Source: Streptomycetaceae bacterium (GTDB taxonomy: Bacteria > Actinomycetota > Actinomycetes > Nanopelagicales > Nanopelagicaceae). Taken from it: a stretch of DNA of 64,000 bases. Where the stretch lies: assembly GCA_027483765.1 (NCBI GenBank), contig JAIXTW010000003.1, forward strand, positions 1 to 64,000. Reading direction: 5' to 3'. The first letter of the stretch is position 1; the number at the start of each line of letters is the position of its first letter. Positions 36,358 to 41,424 of this stretch are shown here, one piece after another. Below the pieces are notes generated by a model. That model did no database searches. It worked only from the letters and a program-made list of their open reading frames with translations, and was not told the DNA's origin. The position numbers and the translations under genes were made by a program.

Positions 36358-37221
36358 GTGGAGATTCATCAAATTCCGTCATTGCGTTCGCCGGTCATGG
36401 TTATCGCCTTCTCTGGCTGGAATGACGCTGCCGAGGCTGCTACAGGTGCGCTTTCTCACTTATTAGCTTCATGGAGCGATCCTGAATTTGATGTAGTTCC
36501 TGAACTTATTGCAGATGTCGACCCGGAAGATTTCTATGATTTTCAAGTCAATCGTCCAATGGTTGAAATCGATGAATCCAGTGTTCGAGCACTTACTTGG
36601 CCGGGCACTCAAATCTTTGCTTTAAAAACTCCAACTCTTGATCATGATTTTGTAGTTGTACGTGGTGTTGAACCATCGATGAAATGGAAAACCTTCACTG
36701 CCGATCTCTTGGATTTAGCTGATGATCTAGAAGTTGATCTAGTGATCACGCTGGGTTCAATGCTGGCTGATGCGCCTCACACAAGGCCCATTACCGTGAG
36801 TGGTAGCGGGGCTCATCCAGATATCGCGCAGCGACTTGGGGTTGAGATCAGTAAATACGAAGGTCCCACTGGAATTCTAGGAGTTATCCAAGATGGGTGC
36901 GTGCGTCGCGGAGTCGATGCTGTTTCACTATGGGCGGCCGTTCCACACTATGCATCGAATTCACCTTCACCGAAAGCAACTCTTGCGCTAATAAATGCAC
37001 TCGAAGATTTTCTAGAGATTTCTATTCCGCAAGGAGTACTGCCTGATGAATCTAGCGCTTGGGAGATTGAAGTCTCTGAAATGGCTAAGGAAGATTCCGA
37101 TGTTGCCGAATATGTGAAAGCGCTGGAAGAGAGTAAGGATGCCTCCGATCTTCCTGATGTGACAGGTGAATCAATCGCGCGCGAACTCGAGCGATTCCTT
37201 AGACGACAGAACGGAAGTTAG
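36358..37221 (+). CDS. PAC2 family protein
   Basis: The 287-aa protein belongs to the PAC2 family, related to a proteasome-assembly chaperone: VMVIAFSGWNDAAEAATGAL near residue 13, DFYDFQVNRP, LDHDFVVVRGVEPSMKW and LGSMLADAPHTRP. The bacterial role is unknown. It is the Rv2125 orthologue by position near metH. GTG start with AAGG 7 bases upstream. Its TAG overlaps the mshC stop on the other strand. It is notable that a PAC2 protein persists where no proteasome genes are seen in this region. Confidence 0.9.
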   Translation: MEIHQIPSLRSPVMVIAFSGWNDAAEAATGALSHLLASWSDPEFDVVPELIADVDPEDFYDFQVNRPMVEIDESSVRALTWPGTQIFALKTPTLDHDFVVVRGVEPSMKWKTFTADLLDLADDLEVDLVITLGSMLADAPHTRPITVSGSGAHPDIAQRLGVEISKYEGPTGILGVIQDGCVRRGVDAVSLWAAVPHYASNSPSPKATLALINALEDFLEISIPQGVLPDESSAWEIEVSEMAKEDSDVAEYVKALEESKDASDLPDVTGESIARELERFLRRQNGS

Positions 37222-38459
37222 AGCGCAATACCCAACAGAGTGTCTAGCGCTCTGGAAAGCTCACCCGCCTCACCACCAGTTTCACCCGCAGTAGTTGCCG
37301 ACATCCAAGCACGAAGTATCGATTGCACTTCGCGAGTATCAAGATTATTCGATAGCGCGTTAATGATGGATTGAATAACAGAATCGGTAGGAGCGACATC
37401 TACTCGAGACATCTGCAGACGAAGATCATCTATCTCAGTTACGGCATCTTGCAAGCGTTCAGTGGTCCACATGAGTTCATCAGAAAATTGATGACCCATG
37501 AGCGCCCATCTAATCGCCATCGGGTCAACACCTTGCGCGATAAGTTTGGAGACAAAGACCAGATTTCCTCGAGACTTGCTCATCTTTTCGCCATCGAGTC
37601 CAATCATTCCAGCGTGGATATAAGTGCGTGAAAATCTTTGTTTGCTGATAATCCGACTTTGCGCCGCCGACATTTCATGATGCGGAAAAATTAAATCGCT
37701 ACCACCTCCCTGGATATCGATAGCGTATTCCTCTGAATGCTCCGGCTGCAGATAGTGCAGAGCAATCGCACAACATTCGATATGCCAGCCGGGTCGACCT
37801 TTCCCGAAAACAGATGCCCAACCGGGTTCACCATCTCGTTGGGCGAGCCAGACCAAAGCATCCAATGGATTCTCTTTGCCTTTTCGGGTCGGGTCTCCCC
37901 CTCTTTCGGCGAAAATTGAGAGCATCTGGGCTTCGGTGTAGTCAGAACGCGAACCAAACTCACTGTCAGAATGCACTCTGAAGTAGAGATCGTTTTCTAC
38001 GTTATATGTGGTCTCCGAATCTTCCAGAGCAACGATTGAGCTAACGACGAGATCCATCGCCTCAACTACGCCAACGTAGTGCTGAGGCGGAAGGATATGA
38101 AGATCCGTCATATCTCCCCTAAAAAGATCAATCTGAGACTTTGCTAAGACCTCCCAGTCAACTCCGTCGCGAGCCGCGCGCTCAAGCAATGGATCATCAA
38201 TATCCGTGATGTTCTGTACATAACGAACTTCCGAACCACTCGCCTTTAGATAACGGTGAATTAAATCGAAGGTGAGATAAGTAGCGGCATGGCCAAGATG
38301 AGTTGCGTCGTAAGGAGTAATCCCACAGACGTACATTCGGTAAATAGGCTTAGCCGGAAATTCCTCGACCCGCTTACTCGAGGTATTAAGAACGCTCAGA
38401 GGCGGAACCGAGAACCTCTCTGATAGCCGTGGAATATAAACTTCGGGCCAAGCACGCAT
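37218..38459 (-). CDS. mshC: Cysteine:glucosaminyl-inositol ligase MshC (mycothiol synthesis)
   Basis: Joins cysteine to GlcN-Ins in mycothiol synthesis, giving the main actinobacterial thiol. The 413-aa protein is a class I synthetase homologous to CysRS: Zn Cys45 in MYVCGITPYD, HLGH at 54-57, second zinc residues in WHIECCA and FPHHE, and KMSKSRGN. The CGITPYDATHLGHA block and the absence of the tRNA-binding C-terminus separate it from CysRS. A -10 box lies 6 bases before ATG. It lies 14 bases after the PI-kinase-like gene. Confidence 0.94.
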   Translation of the reverse strand: MRAWPEVYIPRLSERFSVPPLSVLNTSSKRVEEFPAKPIYRMYVCGITPYDATHLGHAATYLTFDLIHRYLKASGSEVRYVQNITDIDDPLLERAARDGVDWEVLAKSQIDLFRGDMTDLHILPPQHYVGVVEAMDLVVSSIVALEDSETTYNVENDLYFRVHSDSEFGSRSDYTEAQMLSIFAERGGDPTRKGKENPLDALVWLAQRDGEPGWASVFGKGRPGWHIECCAIALHYLQPEHSEEYAIDIQGGGSDLIFPHHEMSAAQSRIISKQRFSRTYIHAGMIGLDGEKMSKSRGNLVFVSKLIAQGVDPMAIRWALMGHQFSDELMWTTERLQDAVTEIDDLRLQMSRVDVAPTDSVIQSIINALSNNLDTREVQSILRAWMSATTAGETGGEAGELSRALDTLLGIAL

Positions 38460-38473: not shown

Positions 38474-39175
38474 TTAAAAAGGCGGCCAAGGCACCGCCGG
38501 CCACTCTTCACTTGGAAGCGGAAAAGTCCCGGTTGTGAGCAAGCGTTCAATCCGACGAATGAGAGCGTTAAATTCAGCCTCGGTAATCAAACTGGTAAGA
38601 ACTGTTGGATCAGCTTTAAGGTTCGATGCGAGTTCTTGCAGTGTTTGCTGTTCAGCCGAGGTGAGTTGAGATTCTGCAAATTGCCAAATTACAGTTCGCA
38701 ATTTATCTTCCTCATGAAAAGTGACGCCGTGATCACATCCCAATAACAGGCCATCGATTGTCGGGAGTAGGTGACCAATCTTGCGATCAGTATTGTTGAC
38801 GACGGCATCAAAGAGCGCCATACGTCTGAGATTGTCATTTCTCTCTCGATAGTACATCGCAAGATCAACAGATTCATCGAGATTAATCCATTGCTGCACC
38901 ATTCCAGCACCAAATGGACCCTCACGTAGAACTGTCGGCGGAACGACCTTCCATCCCGATATCTCACTCACCAAGTAAGCTGCATATTCGCGTTGCGCCA
39001 GATTGCCATCCGGAAAATCCCATAGTGGACGCTCGCCGGCTACTGGTTTATAGATAACAGGCATCACTACATCCTGATAACTACATTCAGCATAGAGCGT
39101 TGCATTTGATGCATCCACAAGACGTCCGGAGACGATTAACTCACCAGATAGCAGATGATCGATAACGCTGGTCAT
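38474..39175 (-). CDS. SCO1664-family protein, PI3/PI4-kinase-like fold
   Basis: Uncharacterised 233-aa protein (Rv2133c position). Kinase-like elements are visible: Lys43 in VIYKPVAGERP (ATP-binding lysine), Asp130 in VVNNTDRKIGH (catalytic-loop-like) and Asp148 in LLGCDHGVTFH (metal-binding DFG-like). The family is known only as distantly related to phosphatidylinositol 3/4-kinases. The start overlaps the DUF3090 stop as ATGA. Third gene of a conserved actinobacterial trio with DUF3090 and a histidine phosphatase, followed by mshC. A phosphotransfer role is inferred; the substrate is unknown. Confidence 0.85.
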   Translation of the reverse strand: MTSVIDHLLSGELIVSGRLVDASNATLYAECSYQDVVMPVIYKPVAGERPLWDFPDGNLAQREYAAYLVSEISGWKVVPPTVLREGPFGAGMVQQWINLDESVDLAMYYRERNDNLRRMALFDAVVNNTDRKIGHLLPTIDGLLLGCDHGVTFHEEDKLRTVIWQFAESQLTSAEQQTLQELASNLKADPTVLTSLITEAEFNALIRRIERLLTTGTFPLPSEEWPAVPWPPF

Positions 39176-39723
39176 CTTCGGTAACCGTTAGCCCTGGGAC
39201 AGAGGTGACCTTTGAGGTCTAATGGTCCTCCACAAAAAGGACATGGTTGACGACCAGCTCCAACTACAACGGCCGCTCGTTTGGCGAAACGATCAGCTTC
39301 ACTTGGGGTAATCAAAACTCGCAAAATATCCTGGTCACTACTTAAATCATCGACATCAATAAAATCTGGTTCTGCCTCGCGATTCTCATTAACCGCCTGC
39401 ATATCAATCTGAATGAGACCTTTTCCGGCATCGAATGCGAGACCAATTAAACCGACCCGGAACTCCTCCTCTATCGGGGTTGCTAACGCGGCATCATCTC
39501 TAGGAAGACGAGCGATGGTGAAGGTGTTATCACTCTGTTTAATCTCACGGATGGTGTCAAGCAATCGTTCGGAAAGAACTTGTACCTGCGTCTTTTCTAA
39601 GGAAACAGATACCAGTCTTGCCCCATTTTGCGCCTGAATAAAGAAGGTACGTTCTCCAGGTTGACCGACGGTTCCTACTGTGAATCTCTCCGGATTTTCA
39701 AAGAGCAGTACCTGCGCACTCAT
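39172..39723 (-). CDS. DUF3090 family protein with C-terminal zinc site
   Basis: Function unknown; 183 aa. An N-terminal region (PERFTVGTVGQPGERTFFIQ) is followed by a beta-rich body, and the last 25 residues form a probable zinc site with Cys161, Cys164, His173 and Cys175 (CPFCGGPLDLKGHLCPR). It overlaps both neighbours by 4 bases, so the three products are likely made in fixed ratio. Corresponds to Rv2134c. Family members seem to occur only with the flanking phosphatase and kinase-like genes. Confidence 0.87.
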   Translation of the reverse strand: MSAQVLLFENPERFTVGTVGQPGERTFFIQAQNGARLVSVSLEKTQVQVLSERLLDTIREIKQSDNTFTIARLPRDDAALATPIEEEFRVGLIGLAFDAGKGLIQIDMQAVNENREAEPDFIDVDDLSSDQDILRVLITPSEADRFAKRAAVVVGAGRQPCPFCGGPLDLKGHLCPRANGYRR

Positions 39724-40412
39724 TTCTTGCCACGCTTTGCAGCGCCGGCGCCACCGCCAAGGAGAACTCGTTTAGGTCGAGATACGCGAAGAATATCTTC
39801 AAGGCGAGTTACTTGGTCATTGAAAAGAGTTAAGCGAGCAATCTTTCCATCGTAATCGAGCATCGTAATGGAGGCAGGATCGATGACTAGTGATTGAAAA
39901 TGATCTAGTTTTAACTTTAACAAGCTTGCAACTATCGCTTTGATTACATCTCCATGACTGACAAAAAGATGAGTACCTTTGGATTTGTCGGAAAAGGCGG
40001 ATTCAATCGATGAAATGGAACGCTTCTGCATTGCAGTCATGCGTTCTCCTTGTGGAAATTGAACCTTGCTAGGAGTCTGTTGAATCATCTTCCAGAGCGG
40101 CTCTTTCGCTAAAGAGCTTAGTTTTCTTCCACTCCAACTCCCATAATTCATCTCAATCAGATTCTCATCGAGCATGAATTTCTTTAATCCACTCGAATTT
40201 CTTGACTCTAGCCATGGAGCCAGCGTTTCTTGGCATCGTTGCATCGGACTCATGCGGATGGAATCGAAGGCAACCGCGCCAATTCGATCAACTAAATCTT
40301 GGGCTTGTTGCCCACCTTTTTTGCTCAAAGGTATCCCAGAAATCTGTCCTGCAAGAATGCCGGACTCATTCGCAACAGAATGCGCATGTCTGAGCAAAAT
40401 AATTCGAGCCAC
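39720..40412 (-). CDS. Histidine phosphatase (phosphoglycerate mutase-like, MSMEG_4193 type)
   Basis: The 230-aa protein has the histidine phosphatase core: Arg8-His9 in LLRHAHSVAN, MSPMQRCQET, MNYGSWSGRK (acid/base region) and VSHGDVIKAI with the second His. The C-terminal tail is basic and Gly-rich (GGGAGAAKRGKK). All catalytic residues are present, so it should remove or move a phosphate on a small molecule or protein. First gene of the three-gene module, GTG start, -10 box 7 bases upstream. Corresponds to Rv2135c; the natural substrate is unknown to me. Confidence 0.9.
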   Translation of the reverse strand: MARIILLRHAHSVANESGILAGQISGIPLSKKGGQQAQDLVDRIGAVAFDSIRMSPMQRCQETLAPWLESRNSSGLKKFMLDENLIEMNYGSWSGRKLSSLAKEPLWKMIQQTPSKVQFPQGERMTAMQKRSISSIESAFSDKSKGTHLFVSHGDVIKAIVASLLKLKLDHFQSLVIDPASITMLDYDGKIARLTLFNDQVTRLEDILRVSRPKRVLLGGGAGAAKRGKK

Positions 40413-40425: not shown

Positions 40426-40479
40426 TCGCTAAAATTCTAATCACGACTTTCCGTGGACTACCTTGCTAAGGTCTGCGAT

Positions 40480-41424
40480 ATGGAGATGAGACGAGCAGGA
40501 AATAGCGGCCTCACACTTTCTCGTCTGGGCTTAGGCACGATGACCTGGGGTCGGGATACCGATACCCATGAGGCAGCTGACCAATGCCGCGCTTATATAG
40601 AAGCTGGTGGGAATTTCTTCGATACATCCCCCACCTTTGGTGATGGCGATAGTGAACGCGTTATTGGTGGGCTAATCGGAACTCTCTTCGAACGTGACGA
40701 AGTCGTCATTGCGACAAAGGCAGGAGTCACACACCCTGATGGAGTGCGCACAGTCAATAACTCGCGACAATCACTTATAGCTGAACTTGAAAAATCTCTC
40801 TCCCGTTTAGAAACCAGTTACGTAGATCTGTGGCAAGTTCAAGTGTGGGACGATCACACTCCACTCGAGGACACCCTCTCTGCCTTGGATTATGCATATA
40901 CATCGGGCAAGGCTCGCTATGTTGGTATCTCAAACTTTTCTGGCTGGCAAAGCGCTCGGGCAATAACCATTCAGGAGAGTAATTCGGCTAAAGCTCCTAT
41001 CGTCACGAATCAAATTGAGTTTTCACTTCTCAATCGTTCCGGTGAAGCTGAAGTAATCCCTTGTGCAAAAGCAACCAACACCGGTCTCCTTGCTTGGGCA
41101 CCACTCGGTCGCGGAGTACTCACCGGCAAGTATCGAAGCGGAATCCCGAGTGACTCACGAGCGGCCGCACCGCATTTTCTCAAACATGTTGAACCGTATC
41201 TGCAAGAGAAATCGGCACGAATCGTTGATGCGGTTGCAGTTGCCGCGGAAGGTCTGGGCTTCTCTCCACTAGAGGTCGCATTGGCATGGGTGCGTGATAC
41301 TCCAGGAGTAACAAGTGCCATAGTTGGAGCACGAACTGGCGCCCAACTGCGCGGAATTCTTAAGTCAGAAGAAGTGTCGCTTCCTGACATAGTTCGAGAA
41401 GTCCTTGATGAGATTTCCGCTTAA
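40480..41424 (+). CDS. Aldo/keto reductase-fold protein with altered catalytic tetrad
   Basis: The 314-aa protein has the TIM-barrel AKR fold typical of the YajO/potassium-channel beta-subunit branch (LSRLGLGTMTWG start, VGISNFSGW, IEFSLLNRSGE, a C-terminal GVTSAIVGARTGAQL cofactor motif). Of the tetrad Asp-Tyr-Lys-His, Asp48 and Lys80 remain, but the Tyr position is Phe53 (DTSPTFGDG) and the His position is Gln121 (LWQVQVWD). Ordinary carbonyl reduction is therefore doubtful. ATG 40480 has AAGG 8 bases upstream; a GTG at 40453 is the alternative. Confidence 0.9.
   Translation: MEMRRAGNSGLTLSRLGLGTMTWGRDTDTHEAADQCRAYIEAGGNFFDTSPTFGDGDSERVIGGLIGTLFERDEVVIATKAGVTHPDGVRTVNNSRQSLIAELEKSLSRLETSYVDLWQVQVWDDHTPLEDTLSALDYAYTSGKARYVGISNFSGWQSARAITIQESNSAKAPIVTNQIEFSLLNRSGEAEVIPCAKATNTGLLAWAPLGRGVLTGKYRSGIPSDSRAAAPHFLKHVEPYLQEKSARIVDAVAVAAEGLGFSPLEVALAWVRDTPGVTSAIVGARTGAQLRGILKSEEVSLPDIVREVLDEISA

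Follow-up and report, generated by a model that had tools for sequence, protein, structure and literature searches.

A phosphatase-DUF3090-kinase gene trio of Actinobacteriota and Chloroflexota as a probable reversible-phosphorylation module outside mycothiol synthesis

The closest described counterparts of the locus analyzed here are three families listed by NCBIfam as uncharacterized, TIGR03848, TIGR03847 and TIGR03843 (the MSMEG_4193 and SCO1664 families among them), which correspond to Rv2135c-Rv2134c-Rv2133c. Our literature search brought up no work on the function of DUF3090 or the SCO1664-family kinase, and no established unrelated function for any member of the set; the M. tuberculosis phosphatase Rv2135c has been purified and is by published assay a tetrameric acid phosphatase with a pH optimum of 5.8 (PMC3866925). 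It hydrolyzes pNPP, lacks phosphoglycerate mutase activity and displays a Km of about 8-14 mM for every substrate cleaved (PMC3866925). Small sugar phosphates therefore look unnatural as its substrates, and this weak activity suggests a different natural client. A 2013 review described SCO1664 as invariably located near mshC and proposed a link between the two (PMC4255298).

In the window (the whole stretch of 64,000 nucleotides that was analyzed, positions 1 to 64,000 of contig JAIXTW010000003.1 in assembly GCA_027483765.1), the same families occur in the same order and on one strand, in a genome of 1.29 Mb (11 contigs, 96% complete). Three open reading frames of the minus strand, followed by mshC, encode a histidine phosphatase of the MSMEG_4193/Rv2135c subfamily (TIGR03848-like, PF00300; 40412-39720, 230 aa, GTG start), a DUF3090/TIGR03847 protein (39723-39172, 183 aa) and an SCO1664-family kinase (TIGR03843; 39175-38474, 233 aa). 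The open reading frame coordinates bear out the two 4-base ATGA overlaps described in the earlier note, one joining the phosphatase stop to the DUF3090 start (39720-39723) and the other the DUF3090 stop to the kinase start (39172-39175, both on the minus strand), as well as its placement of mshC (37218..38459, minus strand), whose start at 38459 lies 14 bases past the kinase stop. The family numbers that it named also proved correct against the NCBIfam profiles, the phosphatase falling slightly under its cut-off: the scores are 292 bits for the kinase with TIGR03843 (cut-off 172.4), 185.8 and 172.2 for DUF3090 with TIGR03847 and PF11290 (cut-offs 117.25 and 27), 522 for MshC with TIGR03447 (cut-off 485.1) and 195.5 for the phosphatase with TIGR03848 (cut-off 203.85). 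The last, annotated as a putative phosphomutase family, is the best family by 92 bits, and about 20 other trio phosphatases likewise score slightly below the curated cut-off; the window protein was called TIGR03848-like on position and best match. Given that the trio is already listed in NCBIfam, the copy in the window counts as an ordinary member. Upstream of it, the GTG at 40453 is probably not the true start of the divergent aldo-keto reductase gene; an ATG near 40480-40486 is the more probable start, and this later position within 40453-40490 would widen the gap to the phosphatase start. On the other side, a PAC2-family gene in a ParJ-like position (36358-37221) is convergent with mshC and overlaps its end by 4 bases.

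The earlier note had described a conserved three-gene unit with no assigned pathway, and this description holds in the wider sample. The kinase and DUF3090 were each detected in 89 of 216 Actinobacteriota genomes and occur together in 88 (all co-occurrence figures are raw genome counts, uncorrected for phylogeny, and many genomes are MAGs). Neither apparent exception is a real split, as one is an 18.9-bit match below the cut-off (G165) and in the other only 5 bases of contig remain beyond DUF3090 (G163). A phosphatase scoring at least 182 bits was found in 86 of the 90 Actinobacteriota genomes with kinase or DUF3090; in G077 and G188 the adjacent copy has diverged, and in G150 the gene runs off the contig. 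The phosphatase-DUF3090-kinase order on a single strand is kept across 60 loci and in essentially all of the trio loci sampled; gene order is conserved far above chance. Pairwise distances are correlated among the three proteins, with r of 0.47 to 0.62 (at most 0.15 in permutations), a comparison uncorrected for shared species history. C. glutamicum, included as a control, has the kinase and lacks DUF3090.

Full trios also occur in Chloroflexota, where the kinase is carried by Anaerolineae, Chloroflexia, Dehalococcoidia and SAR202 (class names partly inferred; the kinase-query sample behind this range is biased to carriers). Of 131 Chloroflexota genomes, 70 have the kinase, 85 DUF3090 and 66 both; DUF3090 appears without the kinase in 19, and the kinase without DUF3090 in four, one of them a weak match. 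The carriage of one gene without the others, which the earlier note named as evidence against a single unit, is thus rare in Actinobacteriota but common in Chloroflexota. Among the sub-combinations, DUF3090 is found with the kinase only in 20 loci and by itself in others, and L083 and L129 have phosphatase-kinase pairs that lack DUF3090. The L083 pair (L083:6892-8266, genome G008), its genes one base apart and followed by a luciferase-like monooxygenase gene, is a second copy in a genome that carries a complete trio elsewhere. The lone DUF3090 genes of large Chloroflexota genomes (L176-L189) often follow a D-2-hydroxyacid dehydrogenase gene, and a convergent pair of genes for 136 and 81 aa proteins is often found downstream.

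The adjacent mshC gene had made mycothiol, or its precursor GlcN-Ins, an attractive client, and the notion of MshC, or of a metabolite related to it, as the target of phosphorylation or repair by the trio draws on this adjacency in the window, on the report for SCO1664 cited above and on the presence of the kinase, mostly adjacent to mshC, in all 20 Actinobacteriota genomes (of 216) where mshC scored at or above its cut-off. However, 69 of the 89 kinase-positive Actinobacteriota genomes have no mshC, which disposes of the trio as an obligate component of the mycothiol pathway; mshC is unlinked from the trio in G008 and G198, and in C. glutamicum it is driven by its own SigH promoter (PMC3489674). 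In this wider genome sample, the SCO1664-mshC link is class-level synteny. Together with the full trios of Chloroflexota, the mshC-less genomes also count against mycothiol or GlcN-Ins as a general client, and a mycothiol-related function, already largely refuted as the ancestral role of the trio, is very improbable. Control of the proteasome or pupylation, hinted at by the PAC2 neighbor and by the occurrence of the kinase in 84 of 92 Pup-bearing Actinobacteriota genomes, fares no better and is hardly credible: Pup was detected in none of the 131 Chloroflexota genomes, 70 of which are kinase-positive, so it cannot be a requirement for the trio. It was likewise undetected in the genome of the window, which nonetheless keeps the trio, and the PAC2 cluster adjoins the trio in actinomycete loci only. 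Since the trio recurs in many Actinobacteria and Chloroflexota without mshC, it is probably a general reversible-phosphorylation module and not a part of mycothiol synthesis.

Beyond the mshC-bearing actinomycetes, the neighbors of the trio include genes for fumarase, threonine dehydratase, RecO, UppS, prolyl-tRNA synthetase, acetyl-CoA synthetase and homoserine dehydrogenase. As these are unrelated housekeeping genes, they indicate no pathway, and the neighborhood was rejected as a guide to one. A neighbor of the Inositol_P family in Dehalococcoidia and mycobacteria was set aside as well, its HisN-like or CysQ-like scores all being below the cut-offs. So was an undecaprenyl link, for which the pertinent genes are too scattered: BacA adjoins the phosphatase in a single actinomycete, and UppS is close to the kinase in a different group (cf. 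PMC3866925). Near the kinase, one actinobacterial family and its relatives carry two further conserved protein families (L031:631-1611 and L031:1616-2065) with no Pfam match.

Among branch-1 histidine phosphatases (PhoE, CobC, PspA and Rv2135c), the window phosphatase shares the RHx motif, Arg59, Glu87 and His153, differing in having RHA instead of RHG. The Arg8/His9 pair and the late histidine singled out in the earlier note are intact throughout: R8, H9, R59 and H153 are present in 100% and E87 in 99% of 115 trio phosphatases, of which 52 have RHA and 63 RHG.

The catalytic set of the kinase is equally complete. K43, E63, Q94, D123, N128, D130, R131, K132, H135, D148, E201 and R208 are invariant in 91 homologs (K43, D130-R131-K132..H135 and D148 map to 38732..39049, minus strand), so the loss of Lys43, Asp130 and Asp148 that would have spoken against a kinase was never seen. 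PF00454 is matched by sequence in 83 of the 91. A search of PDB sequences with the single window protein gave no match, and the profile search placed PI4KII beta first (E 1.8e-5). The AlphaFold2 model (mean pLDDT 95.5) has PI4KII beta and alpha as its best PDB matches (Z up to 18.7, 3.3 A, 220 of 233 residues), followed by Fam20 (Z 14.6), H. pylori CtkA (12.9), HipA (10.8) and PI4KIII beta (9.4). On this model, the SCO1664-family protein is a minimal PI4KII-like kinase akin to human type II phosphatidylinositol 4-kinase, and would be expected to have kinase activity. It shares with PI4KII alpha and beta the predicted fold, the ATP lysine, an NxDR catalytic loop and a DHG/DNG metal loop. At 14-15% identity, it differs from them in the loop itself (NNxDRKxxH...DHG versus NTDRGNDN, with His135 at the position of the PI4KII Asn) and in a conserved LRTVxW after the metal loop. 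The atypical protein kinases Fam20, CtkA and HipA have the superfamily fold in common with it, but score lower than PI4KII and come with a toxin-antitoxin or secretory context that the trio lacks. As its relatives act on lipid and on protein, the fold cannot tell which type of client the kinase has.

The third protein, DUF3090, is predicted by AlphaFold2 (pLDDT 90) to consist of two units, each of sheet plus helix, and a tail modeled with low confidence. Searches of PDB sequences with the single window protein and with a profile gave nothing convincing. Among PDB structures, the model comes closest to the PUR repeats found in PURA (Z 10.0 over 112 residues; Foldseek gave only E 0.015), with Whirly and MRP proteins next (Z 5 to 6). 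A PUR/Whirly-like fold is thus likely, and with it DUF3090 may bind nucleic acids. Compared with PUR/Whirly proteins such as PURA and Borrelia Bpur, which its predicted repeats resemble, DUF3090 has no detected sequence similarity and carries an additional zinc tail; its invariant residues are G20, G23, R25, E43, G157 and R158. The putative zinc ligands of the C-terminal CxxC...HxC tail (C161, C164, H173 and C175; 39199..39243, minus strand) are 87-91% conserved. Present in most lineages, the tail has disappeared from one Anaerolineae subgroup in which GR...NG persists; zinc is therefore not essential to DUF3090. Anaerolineae proteins without the ligands (L112, L114, L117, L119, L122, L130 and L144) keep GR...NGR and have a C-terminal YYWT. 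In the DUF3090 alignment, the conservation of every Ser, Thr and Tyr stays below 70%, which makes this protein an unlikely phosphoacceptor via those residues.

Two features of the Chloroflexota loci connect DUF3090 with phosphatases. The histidine phosphatase and DUF3090 are encoded in one open frame, with no stop between them, in L125 (422 aa) and L127 (394 aa), and in L117 the phosphatase continues into a zinc-less DUF3090-like domain, followed by a second DUF3090. As L125 and L127 are closely alike, the shared frames were counted as about two events. Both retain a Met (internal ATG) at the DUF3090 start, preceded in L127 by a purine-rich stretch, so that separate initiation of DUF3090 may persist. 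In one Chloroflexota class, a cysteine phosphatase of the dual-specificity/PTP type (ACMGGVGRTG motif, general acid D110, weak match to PTPlike_phytase) follows DUF3090 in the same orientation, the gap usually being some 20 to 40 bases (L171-L175, L199 and L211-L224). In the 126 genomes of that class, 14 of its 15 strong homologs lie directly after DUF3090. The trio kinase was undetected in all five of the genomes checked with this pair (G279, G297, G337, G353 and G361), and G303 has the pair plus a kinase elsewhere. The DUF3090s paired with the cysteine phosphatase form a single clade (SH-aLRT 99) nested in those of actinomycete trios (99), a topology that looks like one transfer and one phosphatase replacement. 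A histidine or a cysteine phosphatase beside the same partner points to DUF3090 being paired with the activity of a phosphatase, whatever its fold. The shared frames and the swap thus support DUF3090 as the partner of the phosphatase.

The explanation that we favor, albeit tentatively and at somewhat less than an even chance, is reversible phosphorylation, with DUF3090 as both phosphatase partner and substrate-presenting subunit and a client that is most likely a protein. The kinase would place phosphate from ATP onto the client, the phosphatase would remove it through a phosphohistidine intermediate, and DUF3090, with its predicted PUR/Whirly-like and usually zinc-tailed structure, would hold or present the client while physically associated with the phosphatase. 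That kinase and phosphatase act on one shared client is fairly likely. The role assigned to DUF3090 and the protein nature of the client, which may be nucleic-acid-bound, are what we infer from the relations described here: Fam20, CtkA and HipA phosphorylate proteins, the phosphatase assayed in the literature acts poorly on small molecules, and histidine and cysteine phosphatase types both include protein phosphatases. The phosphotransfer module of the earlier note is the natural reading of a conserved unit whose kinase and phosphatase sites are intact, without the mycothiol or GlcN-Ins client once attached to it. Several observations count against such a hub: DUF3090 occurs with the kinase only or, in 19 of 131 Chloroflexota genomes, without it, and some phosphatase-kinase pairs lack DUF3090; the exchange of phosphatase type amounts to a single evolutionary event; by its Foldseek value, the resemblance to PUR is moderate; and the internal ATG of L125 and L127 would allow a separate DUF3090.

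The main rival to a protein client is an inositol-lipid or inositol-phosphate cycle in which phosphatidylinositol or an inositol phosphate would gain a phosphate from the kinase and lose it again to the phosphatase. PI4KII is by far the top fold match of the kinase, both phosphatase types include enzymes with inositol phosphates or phosphoinositides as substrates, and the cysteine phosphatase weakly resembles PTPlike_phytase; we nevertheless regard the cycle as unlikely, as the next best folds, Fam20 and CtkA, are protein kinases, and the trio kinase has no evident membrane insert or lipidation motif and has His135 in its catalytic loop where PI4KII has Asn. Co-occurrence with Ino1 also fails as a lead, being positive in Actinobacteriota (86 of 89 trio genomes versus 64 of 127 others), where both Ino1 and the trio are clade-level traits, and uninformative in Chloroflexota (65 of 70 kinase-positive genomes versus 59 of 61 others). 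Independent enzymes with different clients, held together by operon inheritance, would account for the frequent subsets in Chloroflexota and for the unrelated housekeeping neighbors elsewhere, which place the trio in many operons. This account is rather improbable in view of the near-perfect co-occurrence in Actinobacteriota, the phosphatase-DUF3090 shared frames and the substitution of a non-homologous phosphatase next to DUF3090. A little more doubtful still is a reading in which DUF3090 would be a nucleic-acid-binding, PUR-like regulator, with the PI4KII-like kinase and the interchangeable His/Cys phosphatases switching DUF3090 or its cargo; if true, it would reveal an unrecognized phospho-signaling system across Actinobacteria and Chloroflexota.

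To our knowledge, and within the searchable literature, the Chloroflexota range and variants of the trio, the shared frames, the phosphatase swap and the predicted PUR-like fold of DUF3090 are new, as is the dismissal of the readings based on mycothiol and Pup. The trio has long been a puzzle, kept in mycobacteria, in streptomycetes and in a streamlined genome of 1.3 Mb, and the mycothiol and pupylation leads suggested by its neighbors have now been removed. If reversible phosphorylation by the trio is the correct explanation, a PI4KII-type kinase would join bacterial phospho-signaling.
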